Source of the DNA: JAGLHV01 sp023143305 [NCBI: Clostridia bacterium]
GTDB lineage: Bacteria; CBDUZB01; JAGLHV01
NCBI GenBank assembly: GCA_030637025.1
Contig: DAOVVV010000030.1
Span: forward strand, 1 to 30,320
DNA: 30,320 nucleotides
Reading direction: 5' to 3'
In this document: piece after piece, positions 1,747-27,231 of the stretch
Position numbering within the stretch: position 1 is the first letter of the stretch
Layout: each line of letters begins with the position of its first letter
The notes under the pieces: model-generated
The model's database searches: none
What the model was told of the DNA's origin: nothing
The model's input: only the letters and a program-made list of their open reading frames with translations
Made by a program: the position numbers and the translations under genes

Positions 1747-1973
1747 AATAAAGGTGAAATGTGTTTCGAACGATATAGCAAATTTTAGTGAAAATAAGCG
1801 TTAAAAAAATAAGCCTGTCTGAGCAAAGCGAGTTGCTTATTTTTAGCTTGTTTTTGCGTGCCCGAAGGGTAAAATTATGCGTCCAGAGAGAAACATATTT
1901 TGCCTTTATTTTCCCTGTTCGGGTGAACACAGGGATTCACCCCTACAATAACATCTCCATGTTTAACTGTTTT
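1747..1973. repeat. Dispersed 227-bp repeat, copy 1
   Basis: It aligns without gaps to 27005-27231 at a constant offset of 25258, with 22 mismatches by my count (about 90% identity). It contains a 10-bp hairpin (arms 1805-1814 and 1835-1844, 20-nt loop 1815-1834) and a second perfect 7-bp hairpin, GGGTGAA/TTCACCC, at 1921-1942. No open frame is conserved well enough to be a gene, and no transposase is nearby. It is probably a non-autonomous element or a structured repeat. Confidence 0.85.
1805..1844. repeat. Hairpin with invariant 20-nt loop (copy 1)
   Basis: The arms are AAAAATAAGC and GCTTATTTTT, perfectly complementary over 10 bp, around the loop ctgtctgagcaaagcgagtt. The second copy keeps the loop exactly but has arms AAAAATGGGA/TCCCATTTTT, so three base pairs were replaced with both partners changing. 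An outer AAGC (1796-1799)/GCTT (1846-1849) can extend the stem. Confidence 0.85.
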
Positions 1974-1994
1974 ATCAAAATCCCCTACCCCCCT

Positions 1995-2161
1995 TAACTG
2001 CCTTTTTGGCTATTCGCCATTTGCCATTTGTAATCTTTTATCTATGGACTATCTGTTGTCCTGTCTTTTTTCTTTTAACTTTGTGCCTCCATGCCTTGAT
2101 GCCTTTGTGCCTGTCTTTTATCTGTTATCTATGGACTATCGACTCTGGACTATGGACTTTT
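1995..2161. repeat. Degenerate heptamer satellite array next to the recG 3' end
   Basis: Read on the minus strand from the recG stop, the DNA falls into near-heptads: agtccat, agtccag, agtcgat, agtccat, agataac, agataaa, agacagg, cacaaag, gcatcaa, ggcatgg, aggcaca and, further on, acaaatg, gcaaatg, gcgaata. It shares 21- and 22-nt identical words with the array beside thrS (2098-2118 with 27363-27383; 2009-2030 with 27255-27276). It resembles the short tandem heptamer repeats described in cyanobacteria in style only. Confidence 0.7.
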
Positions 2162-2163
2162 AC

Positions 2164-4221
2164 CTACCCCACTGAAAGCCATTTTAAATTAGAACCAAAT
2201 CTTTCCCAGAGAGCATCTTTTATTCTGCTTCGTTCAAAATCGGTTAAATTTACTCGTTCTAATGTTTTAAAAGCAATTTCTCGTGTTTTTTCCATAATCT
2301 TAAAATCAATAATAATATTCCCGATTTTTAACTCCGGTAATCCGTGTTGTTGCGTGCCAAAAAACTCCCCGGGGCCCCTCAGTCGCAAATCTTCTTCTGC
2401 GATTTTAAACCCATCATTAGTTGCCAACATAACTTCTCTTCTTCTTCTCGCCTCAAATGCTTTAAATTCCCCAATGAGAATACAATGGGAAGTATGTTTT
2501 CCCCGTCCGATCCTGCCCCGTAATTGATGCAGAGTGGATAAACCAAAACGGTTACTGTTTTCTATCACCATTACCGTAGCATTATTCACATCTATTCCTA
2601 CTTCAATTATCGAGGTAGTGACCAATATATCCAGCTCTTTCTCTACAAACTTTTCCATTACTGTTTTCTTTTCCTTCTTTTTCATTTGGCCGTGTAAAAT
2701 ACCCACTTTATAAGTAGGAAAAACATCCTTCTTTAGTTTTTCAAGCATTTTTACTGCTGCCTTTATCTGAAGACTCTCACTTTCATCTACTAAAGGATAA
2801 ACAATATAGCATTGTCTTCCCTTTTCTATTTCTTCCGATACCTTCCTATAAGCTTGTTTCTCTTTCATACATTGAGTAATAATTTTTCCCCGGCCTTTCG
2901 GAGATTCTGATATAGTAGATACATCCAAGTCACCGTAAACAGTTAACGCTAAAGTCCGCGGTATTGGGGTTGCGGTCATTACTAAAACATCAGGATTTAG
3001 GCCTTTATTCCGTAACAAAGCACGTTGATTCACCCCAAACTTATGCTGTTCATCAATCACCACTAATCCTAACTGAAAAAAATCTACCCCTTCCTGAATA
3101 AGGCTGTGAGTTCCAACGATAATATCTATTTTCCCTTCCTTAAGTTCCTGACAAATTTTTCTCTTTTCCCTTTTTCCCATCCCTCCTGCTAACAAATCCA
3201 CTCTAATTTTTAAAGGGGCGAGCATTTTCTCCAGATTTATATAGTGTTGCATAGCAAGTATTTCCGTAGGAACCATTATTACCCCCTGCCTACCATTTTC
3301 CACAGCTAATAGGAGAGCCGCCAGAGCAACCACGGTTTTACCGCTTCCTACATCCCCTTGCAGGAGCCGATTCATTGGATGTATACTTTGCATATCGGAA
3401 AAAATTTCATTAATTACTTTTTTTTGAGCCGGAGTAAAATCAAAAGGAAGTGTCTGACGAAAAGGAGTAAGTAATGTGCGCTTTAATCGGCAAGTAAAAG
3501 ATTTTTTTATTTTTTTTATCCCTTTCTTCTTAAAAGCCAACGCCAATTGAAAAAGAAAAAATTCGTCAAAGACAAGTCTACGGTAAGCTTTTTCCTTTTC
3601 CTGCCAATTTTGGGGGAAATGAATTTCTTTTATCGCCCAAATATAATCACAAAGATTTGCTTCATGTTTAATTATATCAGACAACATATTCTGAAAATTA
3701 TCCACATATTTATCCAATGTTTTTTTTATCAAACTACGTAAAAACTTTATATTTAGCCCCTTGGTTAGTCCATAGATAGGCACAATTCGTTTGGTATGAA
3801 TAAGATCGTTATCAGACCCATCTAAAATTTCATAAGTAAAATTACTGCTTTCTAATTGAGTAAGTTTACGTTCAAAGTTACCGTGTAAGACGACATGGAC
3901 TCCTGTTTTAAGAATATCCGCTAAATACATCTGATTAAAACAAATAAGAACTACTTCTCCGCTGTTATCTTTCAGGAAAATTTTTAGAATTCCATTTCTT
4001 TTTCTGGTATAAATGATTTTCTGATTTACTACCTGAGCTTGAATGCTGGTCTCTTCCCCATCCTGAACTTTAGAAATTGCCTTCAACTGCCGTCTATCCT
4101 CATACTCCTTAGGAAAATAAGTAATCAAATCATAAACTGTTTTTACTCCCAATTTTTCCAACAATTTTGCCTTTTGCGGACCTACCCCTTTTAAATACTG
4201 CACATTATTCTTAAACATCAT
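2164..4221 (-). CDS. recG: ATP-dependent DNA helicase RecG
   Basis: RecG remodels stalled replication forks and branch-migrates Holliday junctions in the cytoplasm. The 685 residues match the usual length (about 690). The N-terminal wedge/OB region is about 60-150. Helicase motifs in order: Walker A GDVGSGKT (289-296), DEQH box in VVIDEQHKFGV (about 390), motif III TATPIPRT (416-423), motif VI QLRGRIGRG (566-574), and the RecG-specific C-terminal LRLRGPGEFFGTQQHG (about 612-627). The start is ATG-ATG at 4221/4218, with no strong Shine-Dalgarno sequence. It follows pgeF after 67 nt, at the end of the division-gene run. The stop TAG abuts a heptamer array. The gene looks intact. Confidence 0.97.
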   Translation of the reverse strand: MMFKNNVQYLKGVGPQKAKLLEKLGVKTVYDLITYFPKEYEDRRQLKAISKVQDGEETSIQAQVVNQKIIYTRKRNGILKIFLKDNSGEVVLICFNQMYLADILKTGVHVVLHGNFERKLTQLESSNFTYEILDGSDNDLIHTKRIVPIYGLTKGLNIKFLRSLIKKTLDKYVDNFQNMLSDIIKHEANLCDYIWAIKEIHFPQNWQEKEKAYRRLVFDEFFLFQLALAFKKKGIKKIKKSFTCRLKRTLLTPFRQTLPFDFTPAQKKVINEIFSDMQSIHPMNRLLQGDVGSGKTVVALAALLLAVENGRQGVIMVPTEILAMQHYINLEKMLAPLKIRVDLLAGGMGKREKRKICQELKEGKIDIIVGTHSLIQEGVDFFQLGLVVIDEQHKFGVNQRALLRNKGLNPDVLVMTATPIPRTLALTVYGDLDVSTISESPKGRGKIITQCMKEKQAYRKVSEEIEKGRQCYIVYPLVDESESLQIKAAVKMLEKLKKDVFPTYKVGILHGQMKKKEKKTVMEKFVEKELDILVTTSIIEVGIDVNNATVMVIENSNRFGLSTLHQLRGRIGRGKHTSHCILIGEFKAFEARRRREVMLATNDGFKIAEEDLRLRGPGEFFGTQQHGLPELKIGNIIIDFKIMEKTREIAFKTLERVNLTDFERSRIKDALWERFGSNLKWLSVG

Positions 4222-4267
4222 TTTTGCTCACTTTATACCCATCCTTTAAAACACAGCACCATCCGAA

Positions 4268-4290
4268 AATAAAAAAAGTAATTTTACTTT
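4268..4290 (-). terminator. Weak AT-only hairpin after pgeF
   Basis: On the minus strand AAAGTA-AAAT-TACTTT is followed by TTTTATTTT and starts at the pgeF stop codon. It has the shape of an intrinsic terminator but no G:C-rich stem, so it may only partly reduce read-through into recG. Confidence 0.3.
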
Positions 4291-4996
4291 ATTTTAACAT
4301 AATCAACGACATCATTCTGTTTTGTTCCTTTTCCCGTCGATAAGAAAAAAAATATTCTTTTTGATGTGCGGTACACATATTACACATTGAAATATTTTTT
4401 TTCTTTATTCCCAATTCTATTAATTTTCGTTTTACCACTTTACTTAAATCCAGACTCCAGGAAGAAGGGGATTTTTTTTCCCCATCTTTTTTATTAAACT
4501 TATTCATAACTTCCTCCCCCACCGTAAAACAACAAGGCCTGATGTGTGGTCCTATTCCTATCCAACAATTTTCCATCCGGCTATTGTAATATTTTTTCAT
4601 CCTAGATAAACCATTCTCGATGATATTCAGATAAAGACCCTTCCACCCACAATGCAATAAACCCACTGCACGATTTAAGGGATCTATGATAAATAAAGGC
4701 AGGCAATCAGCGGTAAATATAGCTAAAGGAACAACCCGGCGGTTAGTAACCAAACCATCTATACCTTTTATGTAATTATTTCTTTTTTCGTTCTCTACCA
4801 CAAAAACTTCATTGCTATGAATTTGTTCACCGTAAACTAAATTTTTAATATCCAAATCTATTGCTTTAGAAAGAATATTTCTTAATTCGGATCCCCGCAT
4901 ATTTCCAAAATGCCGCGTAGTTGTAAAGATGCAAAGATTATATTTTTTACTAATATCTTCTTCGTAGATTAAACCGTTCTTAATTTTCCAAACCAT
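4289..4996 (-). CDS. pgeF: Peptidoglycan editing factor PgeF (YfiH, Cu-oxidase_4/laccase-domain family)
   Basis: Members of this family (YfiH/PgeF) act in the cytoplasm. E. coli PgeF is reported to remove peptidoglycan precursors carrying a wrong amino acid at position 1; relatives also show purine nucleoside phosphorylase activity. The 235-residue length is normal. The metal ligands expected for the family are present: His60 in YGEQIHS, Cys98 in TADCLP and His115 in LHCGWKG. The family blocks DGLVTN, IGIGPHIRPCCF and FFSYRRE also match. The ATG at 4996 has only a weak Shine-Dalgarno sequence, and the gene lies 27 nt after pilT. Its place just behind ftsZ in a murein/division run supports the editing role over an oxidase role. 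Confidence 0.9.
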   Translation of the reverse strand: MVWKIKNGLIYEEDISKKYNLCIFTTTRHFGNMRGSELRNILSKAIDLDIKNLVYGEQIHSNEVFVVENEKRNNYIKGIDGLVTNRRVVPLAIFTADCLPLFIIDPLNRAVGLLHCGWKGLYLNIIENGLSRMKKYYNSRMENCWIGIGPHIRPCCFTVGEEVMNKFNKKDGEKKSPSSWSLDLSKVVKRKLIELGIKKKNISMCNMCTAHQKEYFFSYRREKEQNRMMSLIMLK

Positions 4997-5023
4997 TTAT
5001 AAAAAAACCTATCTTTAATTAAT

Positions 5024-6097
5024 TTATGTTCCCCGGGTAATACCTTTAATTTGCAGGACTATCTCTTCGGGATTGGTAGCCGCGGAAAGGATATCTTCCA
5101 GATTTACTAATCCCTTATTATACAATTGTAATAATGATTGGGTAAAAGTCTGCATCCCATAATAACCACCCTGCTCCATTGCTTGTCTTATCTCTGCCAG
5201 ATTATTATCTTCTATTAATTTTTTAACTAAAGAAGTTACGACTAAAACTTCGACTGCCGGAATACGTCCTTGTTTATTAGTTAGAGGAAGAAGGCGTTGA
5301 CAAATTACTCCTTTCAGTGTATCTGCTAATTGAAGACGAATTTGATTCTGATGATGGGGAGGAAAAAGGTCTATAATCCGGGTAACAGTCTGTACCGCAT
5401 TAACCGTATGTAAAGTAGATAAAACTAAATGACCGGTCTGAGCAGCGGTTAAAGCTGCTGCCATAGTTTCTAAATCTCTCATTTCTCCGATTAATATAAC
5501 ATCCGGGTCCTGACGAACTACCCGTTTCAGTGCAAGAGAAAAATCCAGGGTATCCAAACCTATTTCCCTTTGGCTAATAAAACTATTTTTATCTTTATAT
5601 AAAAATTCAATAGGATCCTCAATGGTTATTATGTGGCAGGACCTATTAACATTAATAAAATCAATCATACTGGCCAGGGTAGTAGATTTACCACATCCTG
5701 TAGCCCCGGTAACTAAGATTAATCCTCTTGAATTATCAGATAATTTTTTTAATACCTCCGGTAAATATAAATCATGAAATTCAAGAATTTTTGTCGGCAC
5801 CAGACGAATAGCTAAACTTATTGAGCCACGTTGCCTGAAAATATTTATCCTAAATCTTCCTAATCCCATTAGACTATATGATATATCACAGGCATAATTA
5901 TCTTCAAAAATATTTTTTTGCTTTTCATCCATTAAATTATAAGCAAATTTTTTCGTTTCTTCCATTGAAAGAGAAGAAAATCTGGAAAAAACCAACTTTC
6001 CATTAACCCGAAGAATAGGTTGACTTCCGGCCCGTAAATGTAAATCCGATGCTTTTAAAACAACCATTTCTTTAAGTATTTCATCTAACCCTGCCAT
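5024..6097 (-). CDS. pilT: Type IV pilus retraction ATPase PilT
   Basis: Hexameric secretion-superfamily ATPase that depolymerises type IV pili at the inner-membrane base. The 357 residues match PilT. Motifs: Walker A GATGCGKST (131-139), Asp box IITIEDPIE (156-164), atypical Walker B LIGEMRD (202-208) and His box TGHLVLSTLHT (221-231). The C-terminal helix that reads AIRNLIRE in classical PilT is here SLVKKLIEDN (about 289-298), a diverged version. Start: ATG at 6097 with AGGAG and a 6-nt spacer. No other pilus gene is in the window. The gene follows ftsZ by 96 nt and may be co-transcribed. A PilT-family paralogue with another role is possible given the changed C-terminal motif. Confidence 0.9.
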   Translation of the reverse strand: MAGLDEILKEMVVLKASDLHLRAGSQPILRVNGKLVFSRFSSLSMEETKKFAYNLMDEKQKNIFEDNYACDISYSLMGLGRFRINIFRQRGSISLAIRLVPTKILEFHDLYLPEVLKKLSDNSRGLILVTGATGCGKSTTLASMIDFINVNRSCHIITIEDPIEFLYKDKNSFISQREIGLDTLDFSLALKRVVRQDPDVILIGEMRDLETMAAALTAAQTGHLVLSTLHTVNAVQTVTRIIDLFPPHHQNQIRLQLADTLKGVICQRLLPLTNKQGRIPAVEVLVVTSLVKKLIEDNNLAEIRQAMEQGGYYGMQTFTQSLLQLYNKGLVNLEDILSAATNPEEIVLQIKGITRGT

Positions 6098-6193
6098 AAT
6101 CTACTCCTTTCACAATATTTTTTATTATTTCTTCGAATTTATTTTATCTAAAATCCGTTTTATTTAAAAAATCTCATTTCTTTTAAAAAAATA

Positions 6194-7303
6194 TTATTTT
6201 AACCTTTTACTTTTCCTTCGTAAAAAAGCAGGAATATCCAAATTCCCTTTTTGTTCCTCTTCCGAAGAAGAAATAGACCCCTCAATTTTTCGTTTATTAT
6301 AATCCGGTGGTACTATAGGAAAAGGAGATTCGCTTATTGTTCTTTTTGGATTTAAGCGGGTAGCAATAACTGTAACTTTCAACTTGTCTTTTAATTCATC
6401 ATCAAATGCCTGACCAAAAAAAACATTTGCATCACAAGACACAGCATCATGGATAATAGACATCGCTTCATTAATTTCAAACATAGTAATATCTTTAGTC
6501 CCGGTTATATTTACCAATACTCCCTGTGCTCCGTCAATTGAAATATTTTCTAATAAAGGTGAACTAATGGCCATGTGGGCAGCATCTCTTGCCCTATTTT
6601 CTCCCTGTCCCTCTCCTAAACCAATTAATGCTTCCCCTGCTTGAGACATAACCGCTTTCACATCCGCAAAATCAACATTGATCATTCCGTGAGAAGTAAT
6701 AATATCAGAAATACTTTGTACCCCTTGACGCAACACATCATCGGCCACAGCAAATGCTTTTAATGCCGGAGTATATTGATCTATTATTTCAAATAATTTT
6801 TGGTTGGGAATAACAATAAGGGTGTCTACTTTATTTTTTAAATCTTTTAAACCCTGCTCTGCCTGCTGAGCTCTAACTTTACCTTCAAACATAAAAGGTT
6901 TAGTAACCACACCAATAATTAGAATTTTTAGTTCTTTAGCAATTTCAGCAATTACCGGAGCACTCCCCGTCCCTGTTCCTCCTCCTAATCCGGCAGTAAT
7001 AAAAACCATATCTGCACCCATCAAAGATTCTCTTAATAAATCCCTGTCTTCTTCAGCTGCTTGCTTACCTAATTGCGGATTTCCACCTACCCCTAATCCT
7101 TTCGTCAATTTTACACCTATCTGCAACTTTTGTCCGGCAATAGAATATTTTAATGCCTGTGCATCGGTATTAACAGCAATAAATTCTACTCCTCTAATTT
7201 CAGAAAGAACCATCCTATTTATTGCATTCCCGCCACCGCCACCTACTCCAATTACTTTTATGACTGCAGGATGCTCCTTAAAATCATCACTAAATTTTAA
7301 CAT
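6194..7303 (-). CDS. ftsZ: Cell division protein FtsZ
   Basis: Tubulin-like GTPase that forms the Z-ring at midcell. The 369 residues contain the N-terminal glycine-rich GVGGGGGNAINRM (19-31), VNTDAQAL (44-51), tubulin signature GGGTGTGS (108-115) and the catalytic T7 loop NVDFADVKAVM (209-219). A variable linker (about 317-352) leads to the conserved C-terminal peptide DIPAFLRRK, the docking site for FtsA. Start ATG at 7303 is preceded by aaggaaagg. It follows ftsA after 140 nt, a longer gap than elsewhere in the cluster, which may hold a promoter, though I could not pick a convincing one. Intact. Confidence 0.98.
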   Translation of the reverse strand: MLKFSDDFKEHPAVIKVIGVGGGGGNAINRMVLSEIRGVEFIAVNTDAQALKYSIAGQKLQIGVKLTKGLGVGGNPQLGKQAAEEDRDLLRESLMGADMVFITAGLGGGTGTGSAPVIAEIAKELKILIIGVVTKPFMFEGKVRAQQAEQGLKDLKNKVDTLIVIPNQKLFEIIDQYTPALKAFAVADDVLRQGVQSISDIITSHGMINVDFADVKAVMSQAGEALIGLGEGQGENRARDAAHMAISSPLLENISIDGAQGVLVNITGTKDITMFEINEAMSIIHDAVSCDANVFFGQAFDDELKDKLKVTVIATRLNPKRTISESPFPIVPPDYNKRKIEGSISSSEEEQKGNLDIPAFLRRKSKRLK

Positions 7304-7443
7304 TACCAGCCTTTCCTTTCTTATGTTAAGGAATTGATTTAGCTATCAACTTTTCAACTTTAAAAAACTTCTTATTAATTCAACCTTCTTAAAAAAACAG
7401 ATTAAAAAGTATTTCATTAAGTTTGGTTTTTAATCAATTTTAT

Positions 7444-8670
7444 TTAAAACATTTCATTCATCCAGTTTTTTACTTTGTTAAAAAAAGAAAAAGATTTCCT
7501 GAAACGGGGATTAATAAAATTACGATTTTCTTTCATCTGAGCATATTTAAGCAAACCAACCCCCGTAGCATAACGAGGATTAGAAACTATATCTACTATC
7601 CCTCCTACATTCTGGGGAATTCCTATTCGAGTGGGCATATTAAAAATTTGTTCGGCTGCCTGACTTATTCCTTTAAGGAATGCAGTTCCCCCCGTAAAAA
7701 TAATTCCGGAGGGTATCAAACTGTTATAACCACTGTTTTTTATTTCTTCTTCTACCATTATTAATATTTCTTCTACCCGAGGTTGAATTATTTCCGAAAG
7801 ATGAAGCAAAGATATTTTCCTTTTCATCCTCCCATCTATACTTAAAAATTCTATCTCTTCATCCACATCAACAAGGCTGCTCAGGGCAACCCCATATTTT
7901 TCTTTGAGCTTTTTTGCTTCCGATAAAGAAGTACGTAAACCATAAGCAATATCTCTGATTATATAATCTCCTCCTATTAACAACTCTTTCGTAAAACGAA
8001 TGTTTCCCTCTAAAAATATGGCTAAATCTACCGTTTGCCCCCCAATATCAACAAAAGCTACGCCTAATTCTTTTTCTGCCTGGGTAACTATTAATAAAGA
8101 AGACGCTACTAAACCAAAAACTGCTCCCTCAATAGTAAAACCGGCACGATTTATACATTTAATAATATTATTTAAAGAAGCTGTAGAAACGGTAACAATG
8201 TGAACTTCCACACCTAAATGGCTTCCTTCCATTCCTATAGGATCCGGAACCCCTCTTTGCTTATCCACAATAAAAACTTGTGGGATAGTATGAATTATTT
8301 CCCGGTCAGCAGCAATTTGTATTGCTTTAGCCGATTCCATTACTAAATTAACATCTTCAGGAAGAATTTCTTTATCAGCCCTTGATATACTTATAGCTCC
8401 ACTGCGATTGAAACTTTCTACATGCCCTCCCTTGATATTTACATAAACAGACCGCACAACATCCCCGGCCATTGCTTCCGCTATTTCTACCGCCTTAGTA
8501 ATAGAATTAACTGTTTCTTCTATATTTACAACCACACCGCCTTTCAATCCCCTACAAGCAACTTCCCCTACACCGACAACATCCAATTCGTCATTTATTC
8601 CTGTTCTTCCGATTATACAACATATTTTAGAAGACCCAATATCTAAACTTACTATATAATTGCTTTTCAT
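7444..8670 (-). CDS. ftsA: Cell division protein FtsA
   Basis: Actin-like ATPase that tethers FtsZ filaments to the membrane. The 408 residues from the ATG carry the phosphate-1 motif DIGSSK (10-15), phosphate-2 VDIGGQTVD (207-215) and adenosine motif FTGGTA (325-330). The last residues (about 393-408, with FFNKVKNWMNEMF) form the amphipathic membrane-targeting helix. A TTG lies directly upstream at 8673, but GAGGAG is 8 nt from the ATG and only 5 nt from the TTG, so I chose the ATG at 8670. The normal order ftsQ-ftsA-ftsZ is kept. Confidence 0.97.
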   Translation of the reverse strand: MKSNYIVSLDIGSSKICCIIGRTGINDELDVVGVGEVACRGLKGGVVVNIEETVNSITKAVEIAEAMAGDVVRSVYVNIKGGHVESFNRSGAISISRADKEILPEDVNLVMESAKAIQIAADREIIHTIPQVFIVDKQRGVPDPIGMEGSHLGVEVHIVTVSTASLNNIIKCINRAGFTIEGAVFGLVASSLLIVTQAEKELGVAFVDIGGQTVDLAIFLEGNIRFTKELLIGGDYIIRDIAYGLRTSLSEAKKLKEKYGVALSSLVDVDEEIEFLSIDGRMKRKISLLHLSEIIQPRVEEILIMVEEEIKNSGYNSLIPSGIIFTGGTAFLKGISQAAEQIFNMPTRIGIPQNVGGIVDIVSNPRYATGVGLLKYAQMKENRNFINPRFRKSFSFFNKVKNWMNEMF

Positions 8671-8751
8671 CAATGGTGCTCCTCATTTATAATATACAAA
8701 TTTTAACTAATTAAAATAATCAAACTAATTCAACTTTTTTTAGTTCCAACT

Positions 8752-9555
8752 CTATGTCTTGCTTAATTTAACTATCACTTTACCTATATCTGAAGTAAAA
8801 TATTGCATATCTACATAATCAATTTTTTTATTTTTATTCTTCAAATCAAGTAAAACTTTCTCCAAATAAGTTAATTTCAAATTTATATCAGGGGAAGGGA
8901 CTTTACCAAAAAAAACTTTTGTTCCGTCCCGCAATAAAAATATTATTTTACAAAAATCTTTGGGTACAACTTTTACTATTTCTCTACCGATTGGGCATTT
9001 AGACTCATTTTTCACTAATTGTAAAAAATCTATTGCTAATTTCTTTTTTTCTTCTTCTTTACCGGAAATTAAACCTATAATAAAGGGTATTTCCTTTTTT
9101 AAGTCTTTGCAATCAAAAAGTATTCCCGCCTTATCAATGCCTTTTAATTGACCGTTGATTTTACAATATCCAACCGGCGTTCTTTCAATAATTTCTAAGC
9201 AAAGCGTACCCGGTATTTTTCGTTTCATAATTACCGTTTCTACCGTTGGAACCCCATTTAAGTATTCTTTAATATTTTCTTTTGTTACCAAAAAAATGTT
9301 TTCTTTTTTTCTTAATTTTAAAGATTTCCTTATTTCAGATTCAGATAACATTTCATTGCCTTTAATTTCAACTTTTTTTAACTCGAAAAAAGAGGAAAAA
9401 AACAAAAAGTGATAAAGCTTAAATATTATAATTCCACCAATTAGCGAAGCAGAAATTAAATTTAAACTATGTTTACTAATCTCTTTAATTTTTTCCTTTC
9501 TCAGTTTTTTAAATTTATTTCTTACCCTGATTTTCTGTTTTTTTATACTTTTCAT
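8752..9555 (-). CDS. ftsQ: Cell division protein FtsQ/DivIB
   Basis: Bitopic divisome protein that links early and late division proteins. With the start at ATG 9555 (GAGGA, 8-nt spacer) it has 267 residues. The frame also allows a GTG at 9579, which has no Shine-Dalgarno sequence and which I reject. A very basic cytoplasmic tail (1-33) precedes one membrane helix (about 34-57), then a POTRA domain (FELKKVEIKGNEMLSESEI, from about 61) and a beta domain with RTPVGYC. Sequence conservation is low, as usual for FtsQ, but position between ddl and ftsA and the architecture are decisive. Confidence 0.9.
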   Translation of the reverse strand: MKSIKKQKIRVRNKFKKLRKEKIKEISKHSLNLISASLIGGIIIFKLYHFLFFSSFFELKKVEIKGNEMLSESEIRKSLKLRKKENIFLVTKENIKEYLNGVPTVETVIMKRKIPGTLCLEIIERTPVGYCKINGQLKGIDKAGILFDCKDLKKEIPFIIGLISGKEEEKKKLAIDFLQLVKNESKCPIGREIVKVVPKDFCKIIFLLRDGTKVFFGKVPSPDINLKLTYLEKVLLDLKNKNKKIDYVDMQYFTSDIGKVIVKLSKT

Positions 9556-9652
9556 AAATTTCGTCCTCAGTAAAAACACTTTTTCCCGAATTCATTTTTA
9601 TAAACTCTCAAAAAAAACAAAAATTACTATTTTTTATAAATTAATTTTATAA

Positions 9653-10579
9653 TTATTTTTCTTTAAGAGAAAGCTCTATAATCTTTAAAATTAATTGATT
9701 AAAACTAATTCCCGCAGCCTGCGCTGCTTCCGGGAAAAGACTGGTTGGTGTCATTCCCGGAATAGTATTTATTTCTAAAACATAAATTTCATTTTCCTTG
9801 TTCACCATCATATCTACCCGTGCTGCTCCCTGGCAATTAAAAGCCGAATAGGCTTTTTTAGCATATTGTTGTGCTTGTTTATAAACAGTTTCATCCAGGG
9901 CCGCCGGTAAAATATGGGTAGACATCCCCGGAATATATTTTGCTTCATAATCGTAAAAATCCCCTTTAGGAATAATTTCTATAACCGGCAAAACTGTTTC
10001 ACCCAGGACCCCTACTGATATTTCTTTTCCCTGAATATATTTTTCTATTATTACTTCAGAACCATATTGAAATGCTTTATTTAAAGCCGGATATATACTT
10101 TTCATATCTAAAACCTTAGTAATCCCTACAGCTGAACCCTCCATAGAGGGCTTTACTATCACAGGAAATTCTAAAAACAGTTCCTGCAGAAAATCTCCTT
10201 TCTTTACCACTTTATACCCTGGTGAGGGAATATTATTAAATGAAAAAAAGCATTTGCTAAAAACTTTATTCATTGCTAACGCAGAACTTAAAACCCCCGA
10301 ACCACTATAAGGTAATTCCATCAACTCCAAAATAGCCTGTATTGTTCCATCTTCCCCAAAAGTACCGTGTAAAGCAATGAAAACATAATCTATTTTTTCT
10401 TCTTCTAATTTTGCCATAAATTCTTTTTTATCTACATCTATAGTTAAAACATTCAATCCTTCTTCAACCAATGCCTTTTTTACTGCTTTTCCTGTTTCAA
10501 GAGAAACCTCTCTCTCTTGAGACCACCCACCCATTATTATTCCTATCCGTTTATCCTGAAAAAACTTTTTTGTATCCAC
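9653..10579 (-). CDS. ddl: D-alanine--D-alanine ligase
   Basis: ATP-grasp enzyme making the D-Ala-D-Ala dipeptide that MurF adds to the murein precursor. The 308 residues contain IMGGWSQEREVSLETG (15-30), LHGTFGEDG (70-78), VKPSMEGSAVG (142-152), YDYEAKY (209-215; the Tyr typical of D-Ala rather than D-lactate specificity), ARVDMMV (253-259) and the metal-binding EINTIPGMTPTSL (269-281). The start is GTG at 10579, fixed by AGAGG five nt upstream and by the family N-terminus. It lies 12 nt after murB, so the two are surely co-transcribed. Confidence 0.96.
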   Translation of the reverse strand: MDTKKFFQDKRIGIIMGGWSQEREVSLETGKAVKKALVEEGLNVLTIDVDKKEFMAKLEEEKIDYVFIALHGTFGEDGTIQAILELMELPYSGSGVLSSALAMNKVFSKCFFSFNNIPSPGYKVVKKGDFLQELFLEFPVIVKPSMEGSAVGITKVLDMKSIYPALNKAFQYGSEVIIEKYIQGKEISVGVLGETVLPVIEIIPKGDFYDYEAKYIPGMSTHILPAALDETVYKQAQQYAKKAYSAFNCQGAARVDMMVNKENEIYVLEINTIPGMTPTSLFPEAAQAAGISFNQLILKIIELSLKEK

Positions 10580-10591
10580 TTTTTCCTCTCA

Positions 10592-13130: not shown

Positions 13131-13150
13131 GATGATATGATAAAGTGTCA

Positions 13151-18350: not shown

Positions 18351-18427
18351 TTTCTATCCATACGGATCAAATATCCGGAATCTTTAAGTGCATCAATAAT
18401 TTCAACTGTATTCCTTCTTTTGACCTT
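18347..18427 (-). pseudogene. Short reading-frame remnant fused by ATGA overlap to the 98-aa gene
   Basis: 26 sense codons between TAA (18430-18428) and TGA (18349-18347) encode KVKRRNTVEIIDALKDSGYL plus a short basic tail. No start codon precedes most of it. The pattern VEIIDALKDSGYLIR is faintly like the start of HicA-type toxins, but this is too short to claim. Probably the end of a decayed gene. Confidence 0.25.
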
Positions 18428-18460
18428 TTAAATAAAATTTTGTTCGAACTATATAAAAAA

Positions 18461-19003: not shown

Positions 19004-19047
19004 CTTTACACCTTATTTTATAAATTAGTTCCCTTTTTTTAAACTTA

Positions 19048-19557: not shown

Positions 19558-19583
19558 AAGGCCTCCCTTTCTAAGTGTCAACA

Positions 19584-20525: not shown

Positions 20526-21357
20526 CCCATATTACCTGCTTTGCATCAAATATCGGGCCGTCTTTACACACTCTAACATATTTAAAACCCGGAAAATCTT
20601 CACTTTTAATCTTTACCGCACAGCCTAAACAACTCCCTATACCACAAGCCATATACTCTTCCAGACAAACCTGAGCGGGAATTTTATCTTTTTCAGTGAT
20701 TTTAGCTATTTCCTTAAGCATTAAAGACGGACCACAACTATAAGTCATAAATAAAGAAGAAGACCGGCCAACTTTTAACTCTTCTTTTAAGAGATCGGTA
20801 ACCAAGCCCTTACTGCCAATCGACCCATCTTCTGTAGCAATTTTTACCTGGCAATTTAATTTATCAAAATTACAAGTAAGTAAAGATTCTTTTTTATTTT
20901 TAATTCCGATTAAAACAGAAACAACAAAAGAACGGAAATTCATCAAGCATTCCGCCAGGAATAAAAGAGGAACGACCCCTATTCCTCCACCGATTAAAAT
21001 AATCCCGGACTTTTGCTTTTGATTTTTTTTTCTTTCCGGAGGCAATATAAACCCATTACCTAAAGGCCCAATGATATCTATACACTCTCCGGACTTTTTT
21101 TGACTTAAAATATTAGTTCCTTTTCCTACTATTTTATAAAGCAATTCAATTTTAGATTTTTGTTTTACCTTTGGAGGTCCAATTCTGTATATGCTGAATG
21201 GTTTTCTTAAAAAAGGTTCATATCCTTCACTAATTTGTACATTAATAAACTGGCCGGGTTTAGCAAATTTAGCAATCTGCGGAGCATCGACTACTAAATT
21301 GTAATATTGAGATGTAATCTTTTTATTAGCAATAATTTTCGCTTTAATTTGATACAA
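20518..21357 (-). CDS. pyrK: Dihydroorotate dehydrogenase electron transfer subunit PyrK
   Basis: FAD/[2Fe-2S] subunit that links class 1B PyrD to NAD+. The 279 residues show a ferredoxin-reductase-type FAD site RKPFSIY (51-57), a nucleotide-binding IGGGIGVVPLLFL block, and a C-terminal 2Fe-2S site with Cys238, Cys243, Cys246 and Cys264 in the C-x4-C-x2-C-x17-C spacing typical of PyrK. The start is TTG at 21357 inside the 3' end of pyrC (14-nt overlap), with GGAG 10 nt upstream. Translational coupling is likely. Confidence 0.95.
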   Translation of the reverse strand: MYQIKAKIIANKKITSQYYNLVVDAPQIAKFAKPGQFINVQISEGYEPFLRKPFSIYRIGPPKVKQKSKIELLYKIVGKGTNILSQKKSGECIDIIGPLGNGFILPPERKKNQKQKSGIILIGGGIGVVPLLFLAECLMNFRSFVVSVLIGIKNKKESLLTCNFDKLNCQVKIATEDGSIGSKGLVTDLLKEELKVGRSSSLFMTYSCGPSLMLKEIAKITEKDKIPAQVCLEEYMACGIGSCLGCAVKIKSEDFPGFKYVRVCKDGPIFDAKQVIWDE

Positions 21358-22639
21358 AAGTTCTATTCTCCATTACTATTCTACCTTCTACTATTGTAGT
21401 AACAGCAAATCCTTTAAGCTTTCTCCCGATAAAAGGGGAATTTTTACATTTAGAATGAAAAAAATCATTGCCAATCTTTAATTCCATTTGAGGATCAATA
21501 ATAGTTAAATTAGCATATTCTCCTTTTTTTAATCTTCCTTCTTTTAGTCCTAAAATGGTTGCCGGATTCAACGTTACTTTTTTGATTGCTTCAGTTAACG
21601 ACAGTACTTTTTTCTCCACTAATTCAACCATTATTAAAGGTAACAGAGTCTCCAACCCAATAATCCCAAAAGCGGCTAAATTAAACTCCGTGTTTTTTTC
21701 TATATCTAAATGCGGAGCATGGTCAGAGACGATACAATCAATAGTTCCCTCCGCTAAACCTTCTTTTATTGCATTAATATCGGTTTGAGTGCGTAAAGGA
21801 GGTTTCATTTTCATATTAGTATTATATTTTCCTACATTTTTTTCAGTTAAAGTAAAATAATGAGGACAAGTTTCACAAGTAACTTTTATTCCTTTCCTTT
21901 TAGCTTCTTTAATCAGAGTTACTGATTCTTTTGTGCTTACATGGGCAATATGTAACTTTGCCCCGGTTAAGTTTGCCAAAGCTATGTCCCGGGCAACCAT
22001 AATATTTTCTGCTTCCCGCGGTATTCCTGCCAGACCAAGAATAGCCGATACCTTCCCCTCATTCATTACTCCATTATGGGAAAGATTCAAATCCTCACAA
22101 TGCACAATGGTTGGTAAATTAAAAGTTTTAGCATATTCTAACGCTCTGCGCATAATTTTAGCATTCATTATTAAATTTCCATCATCGGAAACTGCTACAA
22201 TTCCAGCTTTACTCATCTCTCCCATTGACGACAATTCTTTACCTAAAAGATTCTTGGTAATACTGCCAATAGGAAAAACATTTATTAATCCTTCTTTTTC
22301 GGCCTTCAACAAAACAAACTTAACCCCGGAAACATTATCAATGCAAGGATTGGTATTAGCCATACAACAAACAGAAGTAATTCCTCCCATTGCGGCAGCT
22401 TTTGTTCCTGAGGCAATAGTTTCTTCATCCTCTCTCCCCGGTTCGCGAAGATGAACATGCATATCAATTAAGCCGGGAACAACTATTTTTCCTTGAGCAT
22501 TTATAATTTTATCAGCAGTAATTGATAAAGGTTTTTTAAGATATTTAATTTTGCTTCCTTCAATTAAAATATCTAAAACTTCATCTATTTTATTATCCGG
22601 GTTAACAACTCTTCCGTTTTTTATTAAAATTTTTTCCAT
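21344..22639 (-). CDS. pyrC: Dihydroorotase PyrC
   Basis: Zinc amidohydrolase that cyclises carbamoyl-aspartate to dihydroorotate. The 431 residues match the long (class I, Bacillus/Aquifex-like) type. Metal site: DMHVHLREPG (59-68), Asp152/153 in VSDDGN, His180 in VHCED, His in IAHVST and the catalytic SDHAPH (about 305). Start ATG 22639 with AAGGA, 1 nt after the pyrB stop. Intact metal ligands argue for an active enzyme rather than an inactive pyrC' partner of PyrB. Confidence 0.96.
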   Translation of the reverse strand: MEKILIKNGRVVNPDNKIDEVLDILIEGSKIKYLKKPLSITADKIINAQGKIVVPGLIDMHVHLREPGREDEETIASGTKAAAMGGITSVCCMANTNPCIDNVSGVKFVLLKAEKEGLINVFPIGSITKNLLGKELSSMGEMSKAGIVAVSDDGNLIMNAKIMRRALEYAKTFNLPTIVHCEDLNLSHNGVMNEGKVSAILGLAGIPREAENIMVARDIALANLTGAKLHIAHVSTKESVTLIKEAKRKGIKVTCETCPHYFTLTEKNVGKYNTNMKMKPPLRTQTDINAIKEGLAEGTIDCIVSDHAPHLDIEKNTEFNLAAFGIIGLETLLPLIMVELVEKKVLSLTEAIKKVTLNPATILGLKEGRLKKGEYANLTIIDPQMELKIGNDFFHSKCKNSPFIGRKLKGFAVTTIVEGRIVMENRTFVSN

Positions 22640-22640
22640 A

Positions 22641-23579
22641 TTAATCCTTGCTATTAATTTGTTTCCGCCCTGCTAATAAATATAAAACTGCCATCCTAAT
22701 CGCTATACCATTGGTTACCTGTTCTAAAATAACAGACTGGGGTCCATCGGCTACTTCACCAAATATTTCCACACCCCTATTCATTGGTCCGGGATGCATC
22801 ACTAAACAATCATCTTTAGCATATTTTAATCTTTCATTAGTTATTGCATAAAATTCCGCATATTCCCGTAAAGAAGGTAAGAGATGCTCCTTTTGTCTTT
22901 CTAATTGTATTCTTAAAGTATAAATCACATCCACATCGTTTAAAGCTTTCTCCAGATTATAAAAAACTTCTACTCCCATACTTTCAATTTCCGGAGGAAT
23001 AAGAGTTGCGGGAGCACAAACACGCACTTCTGCCCCCATTTTCTTTAAGCCCCAGATATTAGAGCGTGCTACCCGGCTATGTAAAATATCTCCGATTATT
23101 GTTACTTTTAAGCCTTTTATTTTCCCTTTTTTTTCTCTTATAGTAAATAAATCTAATAACCCCTGAGTAGGATGTTCATGCGCACCATCTCCGGCATTTA
23201 TTACTGATGATTTTATTGTCCGGGATACTATTTCTGCAGCACCGGCCATACTGTGCCGAATGATAACAAAATCTGCTTTCATCGCTTCAATAGTTTTTAC
23301 CGTATCAATCAAACTTTCCCCTTTAACCACACTACTGGTAGAAATAGGAACATTTAAACTGTCTGCACTCAGCCTTTTGGCCGCTAGTTCAAATGAATTA
23401 CGAGTTCTTGTAGATGGTTCATAAAAAAGGAGTACAACCGTTTGTCCTCTTAAAGCGGGAACTTTTTTTACCGAACGGGTAAATAATTCTTTAAAAGGCC
23501 CGGCCGTATCCAGGATTAATTGGATTTCTTTCTTGTCTAAATTTTCTAATCCCAGTAAATCCTTATTTTTTAATTTCAT
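22641..23579 (-). CDS. pyrB: Aspartate carbamoyltransferase catalytic subunit
   Basis: Transfers carbamoyl phosphate to aspartate, the committed step of pyrimidine synthesis. With the ATG at 23579 it has 312 residues: carbamoyl-phosphate site [12 protein letters not shown] (52-63), [10 protein letters not shown] (134-143) and [10 protein letters not shown] (262-271). I preferred the second ATG (23579) over that at 23585 because GGAG is 7 nt from the former and only 1-2 nt from the latter. It overlaps pyrR by 17 nt. No pyrI regulatory subunit follows, so allosteric control by nucleotides as in E. coli is not expected. Confidence 0.95.
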
Positions 23580-24132
23580 GGGCATTCTCCAGAATTTCTT
23601 TTAAAATTACCCTCTCGTTATCATCTACTTCCTTCAATTCGACACAAATTAATTCTTTAATTGAAGCAGGAAATATTTTTCCTACAAAATCCGGTTGGAT
23701 AGGAAACTCACGGTTACCACGATCAATCAGAACTGCTAAGCGAATAAGCTTTGGCCTTCCGAAATCAATTAATTCATCCAAAGCGGCCCTTATAGTCCTG
23801 CCGGTAAATAACACATCATCCACTAAAACAATCTTTTTCCGGTCTATATTAAAAGGTATTTTTGTTTCACGCACTATGGGTTGGTCAGCAGCAGAATTTA
23901 AATCATCCCGATACAAAGTAATATCTAAAACACCCACAGGAATATCTACGGATTCTATTTCTTTTATTTTAAAAGCCAGACGATTAGCCAGAGGAACACC
24001 CCTATTCTGGATTCCAATAATAACCAGGTCTTCAACACCATAATTCTTTTCTATAATTTCATGCGCCATTCGTTTTATAGTTCGGTCTATTTCCGATTTA
24101 TTCATTATTATCTTCTTTTCGCGAAAAACCAA
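23563..24132 (-). CDS. pyrR: PyrR bifunctional pyr operon regulator / uracil phosphoribosyltransferase
   Basis: PyrR binds pyr mRNA in response to UMP and can also make UMP from uracil and PRPP. The 189 residues contain the type I PRTase PRPP loop [12 protein letters not shown] (102-113) and the family N-terminus ([13 protein letters not shown], from 14). The start is TTG at 24132, chosen because AGAGGTG is 5 nt upstream and because it gives the usual 10-13 residues before the first helix; ATG at 24105 would be too short. It heads the pyr operon. I see no PyrR-type anti-antiterminator and terminator in the 115-nt upstream gap. Confidence 0.93.
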
Positions 24133-24247
24133 AATAACACCTCTTAAATCTGTAATTATAAATTTTAAATTTATTAACTATATTTCTTTAAACTCTTAAG
24201 TGAAAAATATATACTTGTTGACTTTTTAAGTAACTAATTCAAATAAA

Positions 24248-25525
24248 CTAATTCTTTTTAATTCCCCTGGCTCCAATGTCTTTACGATAATGCATGCCCT
24301 CAAATTTTATTTTATCAATTGTCTGATAAGTTAAATTAATGGCTTTATCTAAACTATCCCCTAAAGCAGTTACCCCTAAAACCCGTCCCCCTGCAGTTTG
24401 TAATTTTTTTTCACTGCTAAAAGCTGTTCCTGAATGAAAAGCCACAACATCTTTTATTTTTTTTGTATTTTCCAGACCGGAAATTTCTTTTTCTTTCTCA
24501 TAACTGCCCGGATATCCCTGGGAAGTCAATACTACACAAACACAGGACTTTTTCTCCCATTCTATTACTAATTTATCCAGTTTTTTATCGATTACCGCAG
24601 AAATTATATCTAACATATCGCTTTTTAGTAACGGTAAAACAACCTGTGTTTCCGGATCTCCAAACCGAACATTGAATTCTAAAACTTTCGGCCCCTTTTT
24701 GGTAATGACTACCCCTGCATAAACTACTCCCTTATATTCTATTCCCTCTTTTTTTAAACCTATTATAAAATTTTCAAAAACCTCTTTTTTTGTTTGCTCA
24801 TATATCTCTTCGGTTATCACAGGAGCAGGAGCGTAAGCTCCCATACCTCCCGTATTTGTTCCCTCATCACCATCAAATACTCTTTTATGGTCCTGGGAAG
24901 AAATCATAGGTAAAACAGTTTCACCGTCACAAAAAGCCATTAAAGACGCTTCTTCCCCTACTACCATTTCTTCTATGATAATTTTATCCCCTGCACTACC
25001 AAATTTTCTTTCGACCATTATCATATCAATGGCGGCTATTGCTTCAGGCTTTGTTTTACATATTATCACACCCTTGCCTCCGGCTAATCCATCTGCTTTT
25101 ACCACCAGGGGTACTCCTACTTTTTCCACACACTTTTTTGCTTCCTGGGGATCATCAAAAACATCAAAACGGGCAGTAGGAATATTATATTTAGACATAA
25201 ACTCTTTAGCAAATATTTTACTTCCTTCTAATTGGGCTGCTTTTTTATTAGGGCCAAAAATAGCTAAACCTTCGTTTTGAAAATAATCCACAATTCCACT
25301 AACTAACGGAACTTCCGGACCTACAATAGTCAAATCAACATTATTTTCTTTAACTAATTTCACTAAACCGGGAAAATCAAGAATACCTATATCAACACAA
25401 ACACCCATCTCTGACATTCCGGCATTACCGGGAACACATAAAATATTGGAAACTTTTTTACTATTATTCAGTTTCCAAACAAAAGCATGCTCTCTTCCTC
25501 CCGACCCAATAACTAAAACTTTCAC
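24248..25525 (-). CDS. purD: Phosphoribosylamine--glycine ligase PurD
   Basis: ATP-grasp enzyme (GAR synthetase) for the second step of purine synthesis. From the GTG at 25525 it has 425 residues. Motifs: MKVLVIGSGGREHA at the N-terminus, ATP-binding VVKADGLAGGKGV (141-153), DHKRVFDGDEGTNTGGMGAY (212-231; Thr replaces the usual Pro in GPNTGGMG) and EFNVRFGDPETQ (283-294). The frame extends to a TTG at 25558, but GGGAGG lies 7 nt before the GTG, and family proteins begin with MKVLV, so the GTG is the start. It lies 114 nt after purQ. Confidence 0.96.
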   Translation of the reverse strand: MKVLVIGSGGREHAFVWKLNNSKKVSNILCVPGNAGMSEMGVCVDIGILDFPGLVKLVKENNVDLTIVGPEVPLVSGIVDYFQNEGLAIFGPNKKAAQLEGSKIFAKEFMSKYNIPTARFDVFDDPQEAKKCVEKVGVPLVVKADGLAGGKGVIICKTKPEAIAAIDMIMVERKFGSAGDKIIIEEMVVGEEASLMAFCDGETVLPMISSQDHKRVFDGDEGTNTGGMGAYAPAPVITEEIYEQTKKEVFENFIIGLKKEGIEYKGVVYAGVVITKKGPKVLEFNVRFGDPETQVVLPLLKSDMLDIISAVIDKKLDKLVIEWEKKSCVCVVLTSQGYPGSYEKEKEISGLENTKKIKDVVAFHSGTAFSSEKKLQTAGGRVLGVTALGDSLDKAINLTYQTIDKIKFEGMHYRKDIGARGIKKN

Positions 25526-25639
25526 TCTTTTTCCTCCCTTACCAAAATTATCAATCAAACCTTAATTTCCGGTAAATTATTTCTTTTAATTTCTATGTTT
25601 TATATCCATCTCTTTTATCAATAATCTACATTTTTGATA

Positions 25640-26437
25640 TTATACTAAATTCGCTCCGGCAAAGTCCACTGCATTTTTAAATAAAAATATACCATCTCCT
25701 TCTTCCGGTAATTTTTTCCTTGTCCATTGAGGGTGGTGATATTTATTTATGTACCGCTCCGGATGAGGCATCATCCCCATTACATTTCCTTTCTTATTAC
25801 AAATCGCGGCAATATTGAAAACCGAACCGTTAGGATTATCCGGATACCCGGATAAATTTCCTTCTTTATCCACATATTGAAAAATTACCTGTTCATTTTT
25901 TTTAAGTTTATCCAATAAAAGTTTATTTTTACAAATAAATTTTCCTTCCGCATGAGCGATAGGTAAATAAATGATTTCTTTCATGCCCTTTGTCCATAAA
26001 TTTTGAAACGTAAGTTTTCCTGTTTTTAAATATACCCACCTGTCTTCAAACCGCCCTGAATCATTACCGCTTAAAGTAACTAACTGCTCCTTTTCCATAA
26101 CCTCTATCCCGGGAAGAAGACCGCTCTTTACCAATACCTGAAAACCATTACAAATACCTAAAACTAAATTTCCCTTACCTACAAATTCTTTTAAAGAAGA
26201 ATACAGTTTATATTTTAACTCATTAGCTAAAATCTTTCCGGCACTAATATCATCACCATAAGAAAAACCCCCGGGAATAACCAAAATCTGGTAATTAAGA
26301 AACGGATTATCCTTCTTTAATATTTGATTGATATGCATTGATTTCGTTTGGGCCCCGGCAACTTTCAAGGCATAAACGGTTTCTTCGTCACAATTCGTCC
26401 CTGCTGTTCTCAAAACAACAGCTCTTACTTTTTTCAT
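25640..26437 (-). CDS. purQ: Phosphoribosylformylglycinamidine synthase subunit PurQ (long form)
   Basis: Class I glutamine amidotransferase subunit that supplies ammonia to PurL for FGAM formation. Catalytic triad visible: Cys96 in GICNGFQ, His225 and Glu227 in MPHPER; oxyanion region IPGGFSYGDD (54-63). At 265 residues it is longer than the usual PurQ (about 225-235) and ends in a tail with HHPQWTRKKLPEEGDG, seen in the longer PurQ group. PurS and PurL are not in this window. Start ATG 26437 with GGGAGA, 8-nt spacer. Confidence 0.94.
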   Translation of the reverse strand: MKKVRAVVLRTAGTNCDEETVYALKVAGAQTKSMHINQILKKDNPFLNYQILVIPGGFSYGDDISAGKILANELKYKLYSSLKEFVGKGNLVLGICNGFQVLVKSGLLPGIEVMEKEQLVTLSGNDSGRFEDRWVYLKTGKLTFQNLWTKGMKEIIYLPIAHAEGKFICKNKLLLDKLKKNEQVIFQYVDKEGNLSGYPDNPNGSVFNIAAICNKKGNVMGMMPHPERYINKYHHPQWTRKKLPEEGDGIFLFKNAVDFAGANLV

Positions 26438-26599
26438 ATAATTTGTCTCCCTAAATTACGTATTGTCAAAAGTTTTACTTATTTTTCTTAAGGTATTTTA
26501 CAAGAAATTTTCACTTTATTTGCAAAATTTTTTTGATTTTCCTTCCATTAGATTTTCGTTACTACCAGCAAAATTTCCGATAATGTTCTAAGTGTATCT

Positions 26600-26645
26600 T
26601 AAATCCTGCAAAGCAGGACTGGGTAAAGTGCCGAAGGCGCATAGC
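26600..26645 (-). terminator. Two small hairpins after the 69-aa gene; possible weak terminator
   Basis: TCCTGC-aaa-GCAGGA (26604-26618) is a perfect 6-bp stem; GTGCC-gaa-GGCGC (26628-26640) is a second. On the minus strand the first is followed by TTTAAG, a poor T-run. They could be a weak terminator between the 69-aa gene and purQ, or an intergenic repeat. Confidence 0.35.
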
Positions 26646-26662
26646 TAAATTAGACAAACTGA

Positions 26663-26872
26663 CTATGTTCTTATCATTCCAAAATGTTCAAATGCTTTTT
26701 TAATTGGTTCTTCTTTATCCTGCGGACATGGATTTTTTCTTCCATCAACTCTATTTGCTGCTCTTCTTGGTTCAAGCCCATTCTTTTCTTTTACGTCAGC
26801 TATCCAACAAGTCTGTACAGTAAATCTAAAGTTCTCCCTTACCCACTCTTGAATTTGTTTATATGTTGACAC
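26663..26872 (-). CDS. Small conserved-looking protein (69 aa) of unknown function
   Basis: 69 residues, no membrane segment. Features: YKQIQEWVRENF (4-15), TCWIADVKE (21-29), GLEPRRAANR (32-41), NPCPQDKEEPIKKAFEHFGM (47-66). Proteins with the same layout (a short helix, TCWIAHVKE-like core, NPCP, then a C-terminal helix ending HFGMI) are known to me as an uncharacterised small family; this is from memory, not a search. Start is GTG 26872 after a G-run (AAAAGGGGGG). It stands alone between repeats and purQ. A nucleic-acid-binding role is only a guess from its basic core. Confidence 0.7.
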   Translation of the reverse strand: MSTYKQIQEWVRENFRFTVQTCWIADVKEKNGLEPRRAANRVDGRKNPCPQDKEEPIKKAFEHFGMIRT

Positions 26873-27004
26873 CTTTATCCCCCCTTTTAAAACTCACATC
26901 GGCTAACTTAAAATAGCCGAAATTCTGTTACTAATCCTTTGATAAACAGGTAAATATCAATGTCTTGCCTTAAAATAATTAACACTTTTTTTACATTATC
27001 TAAA

Positions 27005-27231
27005 AATGAAGGTAAAATATGTTTTGAACGATATAGCAAATTTTAGCGAAAATAAGCGTTAAAAAAATGGGACTGTCTGAGCAAAGCGAGTTTCCCATTT
27101 TTAGCTTGTTTTTGCGTGCCCAAAGGGTAAAATCATGCGTCTAGAGAAAAACATATTTTGCCTTTATTTTCCTCATTCGGGTGAACACAGGGGTTCACCC
27201 CTACAATAACATCTCTATGTTTGACTATTTT
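27005..27231. repeat. Dispersed 227-bp repeat, copy 2
   Basis: Ungapped match to 1747-1973 in the same orientation relative to the flanking gene end (22 mismatches by my count). It keeps the 10-bp hairpin (27063-27102), the GGGTGAA/TTCACCC hairpin (27179-27200) and most of the sequence between. Like copy 1 it lies just beyond a heptamer array. Confidence 0.85.
27063..27102. repeat. Hairpin with invariant 20-nt loop (copy 2)
   Basis: Arms AAAAATGGGA (27063-27072) and TCCCATTTTT (27093-27102) around the same 20-nt loop as copy 1. Three pairs differ from copy 1, each as a full base-pair replacement (A:T to G:C, A:T to G:C, C:G to A:T). Confidence 0.85.

Follow-up and report, generated by a model that had tools for sequence, protein, structure and literature searches.

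Two folded repeats in the window

The window analysed here is a 30,320-nucleotide (nt) stretch of contig DAOVVV010000030.1 (assembly GCA_030637025.1, forward strand) from the clostridial genome JAGLHV01 sp023143305. It encodes a division and cell-wall cluster (FtsZ, FtsA, FtsQ, Ddl, MurB, Mur ligases and FtsW), pyrimidine and purine genes, RecG and threonyl-tRNA synthetase (ThrRS), and carries two copies of an intergenic repeat that folds as a long hairpin around a conserved loop, the subject of this study. No transposase family was matched in the 27 of 36 listed open reading frames (ORFs) that were scanned. Of the genomes compared, G001 (94% complete) is the nearest, with 84% of sampled words in common with the window; G002 and G003 belong to the same genus.

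The original prediction described a repeat with 22 differences and no gaps, in which six changes compensate one another in the arms of one hairpin around an invariant loop. Our recount gave the same figures: 1747–1973 and 27005–27231 align over 227 columns with 0 gaps and 22 differences, six of which (1811, 1812, 1814, 1835, 1837 and 1838) form three compensated pairs in a single hairpin. Compensation was slightly understated, as four doubly changed pairs stay paired in the minimum free energy (MFE) fold of either copy (1811–1838, 1812–1837, 1814–1835 and 1767–1890), the fourth lying in the terminal stem. Four further one-sided changes are kept through G·U in either copy's MFE fold (1750–1907, 1756–1901, 1761–1896 and 1789–1856). 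Pairs broken in one copy number three in the MFE fold of copy 1 (1781–1876, weak and inside the element, and 1916–1947 and 1917–1946, outside it) and one in that of copy 2 (1928–1935, outside the element). The 20-nt loop, CTGTCTGAGCAAAGCGAGTT (1815–1834 and 27073–27092), is identical in the two copies, as predicted, but varies across the wider family; a scan of the window allowing up to three mismatches returned these two matches and no third place, with none in 100 shuffles.

The true folded unit is 168 bp long (1745–1912 and 27003–27170, plus strand, which bears the loop) and is bordered by 23-bp inverted repeats; its RNA fold z is −5.35 in copy 1 and −6.03 in copy 2 (200 shuffles each). In copy 1, the left terminal inverted repeat, or outer stem (1745–1767), pairs with the right one (1890–1912) and encloses a middle stem of 12 pairs (1788–1857; 1788–1799 with 1846–1857), an inner hairpin of ten pairs that holds the loop (1805–1844; arms 1805–1814 and 1835–1844) and a small hairpin, TGCCC-GAA-GGGT (1859–1870). 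The terminal repeats of copy 2 (27003–27025 pairing with 27148–27170; inverted repeat I24) are 91% complementary, and its inner hairpin occupies 27063–27102 (arms 27063–27072 and 27093–27102). The remaining 60 bp of the 227-bp repeat, 3′ of the unit, are another repeat, without which the G001 copies compared occur; it includes a separate hairpin, GGGTGAACACAGGGATTCACCCCTAC, at 1921–1946 and 27179–27204. This second hairpin repeat has GGGTGAACACAGGGRTTCACCCCTAC, and GTTCGGGTGAAC is also found 3′ of several G002 elements. Further downstream of both copies (2009–2140 and 27255–27385) lie the same degenerate strings of short motifs (TTCGCCATTTGCCATTTG, CTATGGACTATCGACT and GCCTTTGTGCCTGTC), which recur in the long middle module described below and in the RecG flank of G002.

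Copies in the genus share ends and differ in their middles

Searches with blastn placed the element 13 times in G001, 17 times in G002 and 15 times in G003. Among the 60 genomes searched, the only further place was a weak one in G025, and 56 had none. G001 contains eight matches to the loop. Pairing of left and right ends, with the borders of copy 1, yielded 47 distinct elements of 117–265 bp in the genus (48 rows, L009 and L190 being one place). These elements have common ends and at least three kinds of middle, alone or combined: the hairpin that bears the loop, a hairpin of GGGTGGGCTTGCCCACCC and an AT-rich stretch of greater length that contains strings of short motifs. At the ThrRS site, both flanks of window copy 2 recur in G002 around a different middle. 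At the RecG site, G003 has a left end at the end of its contig and G002 a left end followed by a GC-hairpin middle; the RecG stretch found no match in G001. Interiors thus differ at sites where an element persists.

Elsewhere in the window, a run of 150-bp tandem units at 565–1614 (D1; six overlapping 300-nt copies, 72–79% alike, at a spacing of 150) probably encodes a 50-aa repeat protein.

The loop motif recurs in distant bacteria

The weak place in G025 led to a general loop motif. In the form TGTYTGARCRNAGYGAGTT, the loop caps hairpins whose stems are otherwise quite unlike, in distant bacteria such as Ilyobacter polytropus (Fusobacteriota) and Aureibacter (Bacteroidota). When up to one mismatch was allowed, the general motif occurred in 34 of 196 genomes around G025, compared with 7 places in 5 of the 196 for the reversed motif; some of the single matches (G100, G101 and G115) lack a second arm. 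A wider form of the motif was found in 17 of 386 genomes around G001, ten of which show hairpins. Single matches in that scan are at chance level, because the reversed control hit 11 places in 10 genomes, and seven of the 17 (G031, G222, G236, G331, G354, G376 and G421, one place each) had no stem in their loci when judged by eye. I. polytropus DSM 2926 (G091), of which G098 is a congener, has 68 places, and two congeners have 64 and 46. Families f60, f61 and f63 also appear to belong to Fusobacteriota. An exact scan for the loop in viral contigs returned eight: V261 and V262 have the hairpin and the pseudoknot described below, V259 has a partial stem and V260, V263, V264, V265 and V266 have no clear stem. 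On plasmid pAT6 of Aureibacter tunicatorum, a type I-D CRISPR operon has a full unit (L368, 1320–1562) between its cas7d and cas5d genes.

Stems covary around a near-fixed loop

Two alignments were scored for paired changes. The genus alignment (A1) comprises 27 of 28 copies, L135 being cut by a contig end. Pairing was kept in 95.7% of its 702 cells, with values of 92.3% for the middle stem and 99.6% for the inner hairpin. Forty cells in eight pairs were changed on both sides, compared with 11.7 in shuffles and 0–4 in slid registers, and the inner stem accounts for 270 cells, of which 30 were doubly changed, 12 had a one-sided change with pairing kept and 1 was unpaired. The doubly changed cells trace to four main stem types (AAGC, GGGA, GGAA and GAGC), so the independent events within the genus are few. 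The AAGC stem of the window recurs in G002 (L129), and the three changed pairs in the window are in part old differences between subfamilies.

The multi-lineage alignment (A2) holds 58 of 67 listed copies; stemless viral rows were kept and near copies left out (L146, L149, L171, L232, L233, L244, L246, L328 and L358). Every one of its eight stem pairs shows changes on both sides. Doubly changed cells numbered 146, compared with 57.4 in shuffles and 41–101 in slid registers, and the covariation score was 0.477, compared with 0.190 when shuffled and at most 0.231 in slid registers. In A1 and A2 alike, both measures exceeded all 500 shuffles and every slide. At least seven of the eight pairs adjoining the loop were standard in 100 of 119 unique copies, which together contain 29 perfect 7-bp stem strings, some of which differ from others by a single step or a shift. 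These data support the earlier proposals of selection for a folded single strand and of a structured repeat family whose stems drift around a near-fixed loop; the family extends well beyond two copies, and uncompensated changes are not as frequent as compensated ones.

Within the loop, a purine–pyrimidine (R–Y) pair was GC in 100, AT in 15, GT in 2 and AC in 2 of the 119 copies, and GC in 24 and AT in 2 of the 26 aligned copies of the Ilyobacter group (alignment A3; 26 of 30, with L382, L386 and L396 left out as identical to others and L395 for an insertion). RNAalifold run on the genus alone prefers other loop pairs, and R–Y is broken in 2 of the 27 genus copies; we retained it on the strength of the cross-lineage changes. 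A canonical kink-turn was rejected for the tip, as judged by eye.

A pseudoknot often follows the hairpin, and a modest bias favours the loop strand

In many copies outside the window's genus an H-type pseudoknot comes after the hairpin. Its two stems interleave and covary; one example is CCTTGAT..GTTACTTTT..ATCAAGG..AAAAGTAAC. When the 150 nt that follow the loop were searched for pseudoknots, 32 of 116 copies reached a score of at least 15, and none of 116 letter-shuffled sequences did. The structure starts 47–53 nt after the loop in 19 of 25 listed rows; the other six start elsewhere and were treated as chance matches, and the 32 include at least two of them. The first stem (S1) occurs as CTTGAT/ATCAAG, CTTGAA/TTCAAG, CTTGAC/GTCAAG, TGCCC/GGGCA, CACCC/GGGTG and CGTCC/GGACG, and the second (S2) varies even inside one genome (G123). 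The TGCCC-GAA-GGGT hairpin of the window (1859–1870) is perhaps a relic of the first pseudoknot stem. One copy (L395, 1524–1720) has an insertion of about 35 nt inside its pseudoknot.

With structures predicted without G·U, G·U variants occurred at 35 pair columns on the loop strand and A·C variants at 18 (p 0.027); when G·U was allowed in the prediction the figures were 98 and 34, a count that favours G·U by construction. The alifold energy was lower for the loop strand in all ten groups, and for the window pair the consensus energy was −68.8 kcal/mol on the loop strand and −49.8 kcal/mol on the other. The bias toward the loop-bearing strand is thus consistent but modest.

Borders and genomic setting in the Ilyobacter group

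The end pair TAAATTAYTGAATTTATC...GATAAATTCARTAATTTA was found, with up to two mismatches, at 29 of 30 Ilyobacter-group loci. The two ends stand 382–758 bp apart (28 of 29 at 382–518 and 24 of 29 at 413–518) with TA at both, and the flanks examined by eye show no longer duplication. Features of miniature inverted-repeat transposable elements (MITEs), namely short length and terminal inverted repeats at both ends, are therefore present in the 47 genus elements and at these 29 loci. In an example on plasmid pILYOP01 (L369), two hairpin–pseudoknot units lie head to head; its left half (3800–4000) contains the second pseudoknot, together with a hairpin whose loop is a different one (AAGGAGGTTTACCGACTAT, read on the opposite strand). 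The different loop of this left unit suggests that further loop classes exist. At a site between a cation transporter gene and RseC, G091 and G098 carry the interior in opposite orientations, and that of G080 is different again. Two sets of loci with a few members in common were compared with ORFs (crude call, at least 90 aa): the loop lay outside them in 28 of 29 and 30 of 30 cases, and all four gene arrangements occur around the elements, with no preferred orientation to the neighbouring ORFs.

Alternative explanations

A TnpA/RAYT-like Y1 transposase had been put forward as a possible actor on the folded strand, and the corresponding explanation is that these repeats are repetitive extragenic palindromic (REP) or REPIN-type elements that a Y1 (RAYT/IS200-like) enzyme mobilises as single-stranded DNA. 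High copy number, hairpins and head-to-head inverted pairs (in Ilyobacter and L262) fit this explanation, as do Y1_Tnp matches in G002 (13) and G003 (3). Two of the G002 genes lie near element ends: one (C26:9833–10189) is 1.6 kb from an element, and the other (C148:7609–7929) sits in a 3.6-kb interval bounded by an unpaired left end (6157) and a right end (9729). The latter is part of a complete element (9511–9730), and the C148 arrangement is too little for an autonomous element; a local Y1 link may exist in G002. Two longer open frames accompany the Y1 gene between the left end and the complete element (L406; C148:5900–9950). The other observations speak against the association. Ten Y1 loci of G002 and G003 contained no loop and no terminal repeat within about 1.5 kb on each side, and Y1_Tnp was not found in G001 (E 0.001), despite its eight loop matches. 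Among 80 genomes around G025, 46 have Y1_Tnp: 18 of 34 with the loop and 28 of 46 without, so the domain is missing, at the same threshold, from 16 loop-bearing genomes and is no commoner in loop-bearing than in loop-free ones. The motif pattern misses AT-type loops, and G124 (45 such loops, 9 Y1 matches) was counted as loop-free; with G124 reassigned, the tallies become 19 of 35 and 27 of 45. The Y1-free genomes G128, G134 and G136 (99% complete) carry 12, 10 and 11 loop matches. REPs are described (PMC3733652) as palindromes of 20–40 bp with a GTAG or CGTC tetranucleotide at the foot. The unit here is 168 bp, and the window copies have no GTAG and a single CGTC (1880 and 27138), away from the stem foot. 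We therefore rejected Y1/RAYT as the general mover, leaving the earlier suggestion unsupported, and regard a REP/REPIN origin as improbable.

Apparent compensation can also arise without selection on a fold. Long palindromes are homogenised by template switching, and such quasi-palindrome correction during replication, which copies one arm onto the other, would account for changes that come in runs, as they do in the AAGC, GGGA, GGAA and GAGC stems. It should, however, yield perfect palindromes without strand bias, whereas all four one-sided changes of pairs in both window folds are G·U, G·U exceeds A·C by 35 to 18 and the tip pair is kept across lineages; nor would templating within a hairpin readily explain covarying, interleaved pseudoknot stems. 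We consider this process unlikely to be the main cause. A cellular non-coding or cis-regulatory RNA (a terminator, leader or small RNA) that is incidentally multi-copy would agree with a strand-specific fold and a pseudoknot, with the A-run and T-run at the hairpin foot in AT-rich genomes and with promoter-like matches that coincide with or immediately precede the left end of copy 2 (a 1-kb stretch has 4, where 3.0 are expected). Up to 68 places per genome, patchy presence, inverted-repeat borders and the absence of a preferred orientation speak against it, as do copies in G314 and G123 that lack long T-runs, and intrinsic terminators were rejected on these last two grounds. Rfam 15 gave no match at gathering score in the window and, in 18 loci elsewhere, only tmRNA in L234, apart from the element. 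Weaker matches were all far below gathering (six in window positions 1700–2050 and, at E up to 0.5, four in 18 further loci, the best of these four being SCARNA15 with 34 of 65 bits), and a known Rfam RNA was likewise rejected. We view a cellular RNA as rather unlikely, slightly more so than arm-to-arm correction.

Discussion

On balance we favour a non-autonomous dispersed family in which the loop-bearing strand is kept able to fold. The folded form is most likely RNA, which we prefer because of the pseudoknot and the G·U variants, and possibly single-stranded DNA. The family is large, occurs in several distant lineages and is apparently undescribed; searches of the open PubMed Central literature with loop and pseudoknot strings and with concepts returned no description of the element among the matches listed, and the pseudoknot-string matches, by title and abstract, concern viral genomes and histones. 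The unit itself is best described as a long hairpin with interruptions and a conserved tip, YUGA-RC-RNA-GY-GAG, to which several lineages add an H-type pseudoknot. In the two genera examined closely, the unit is flanked on both sides by terminal inverted repeats whose ends carry TA.

Dispersal and copy number lead us to infer that the element moves. Some enzyme would move it, or would have moved it, in trans; the mover or a host protein would read the tip and the fold, leaving the stems free to drift, and recombination between copies may swap the interiors at occupied sites. A more specific version of this proposal is tentative, and we hold it with less confidence: that these are horizontally spread elements of at least three lineages (the window's genus, Fusobacteriota and Bacteroidota) whose sole conserved product is a folded RNA, with the YUGA-RC-RNA-GY-GAG tip and in several lineages an H-type pseudoknot as well, whose stems can be rewritten and which spread by way of an undescribed RNA-reading mover or host complex.

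Several observations weigh against a mobile family maintained by selection on its fold. Further pair types did not exceed the shuffles (258 of 500 were as high in A1 and 37 of 500 in A2), and neither did the number of changed pairs in A2 (216 of 500 as high). Copies within one genome are kin, so that events are far fewer than cells, and the shuffles ignore this kinship. One of the ten groups, G364, has more A·C than G·U, and the window's own genus is without the pseudoknot. No transposase gene with matching ends was established in G001–G003 or G091, among the matches listed and in fragmented assemblies. Finally, neither an empty site nor a transposition event was seen at the three sites compared (RecG in G002 and G003, ThrRS in G002 and the cation transporter site in G098 and G080), every readable relative being occupied.

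Small palindromic repeats are usually recognised by a conserved sequence. Here the letters of the stem are nearly free, and what distant bacteria retain is a shape and a short tip. Should the strand bias hold, the element must be read as RNA or single-stranded DNA, and the tip and pseudoknot provide a handle for finding the protein that moves or uses it. Such a family would also give an identity to many intergenic repeats that lack annotation in Ilyobacter-like genomes and the window's genus.

Comparison with known systems

ERIC/RU-1 (RU elements: PMC2759123) and Correia elements are palindromic MITEs among the closest parallels, and they resemble the present family in their small size, terminal inverted repeats, TA at both ends and a whole unit that folds as a long hairpin. 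The family described here differs from them in having one tip motif in distant lineages with unrelated stems, an H-type pseudoknot and a modular interior that can be inverted while the site stays the same. The ends of IS200/IS605 elements carry subterminal hairpins that are read as a single strand, as the hairpins of this element would be; the two-sided inverted repeats seen here, and presence in genomes without Y1 (TnpB was not searched for), set it apart. Apical loop–internal loop (ALIL) pseudoknots are reported to be linked to frameshifting in IS3-like elements (PMC4993456). The likeness is an RNA pseudoknot within a mobile element; the difference is that no ORF is seen here and the knot is of H-type and follows a long hairpin. 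REP/REPIN elements are similarly short, dispersed, intergenic, hairpin-forming, present in high copy number and arranged in inverted pairs, with a mover that would act in trans. The present element departs from them in lacking GTAG, in its greater length, in conserving a loop and not a foot, in its pseudoknot and in showing no association with Y1 over 80 genomes.

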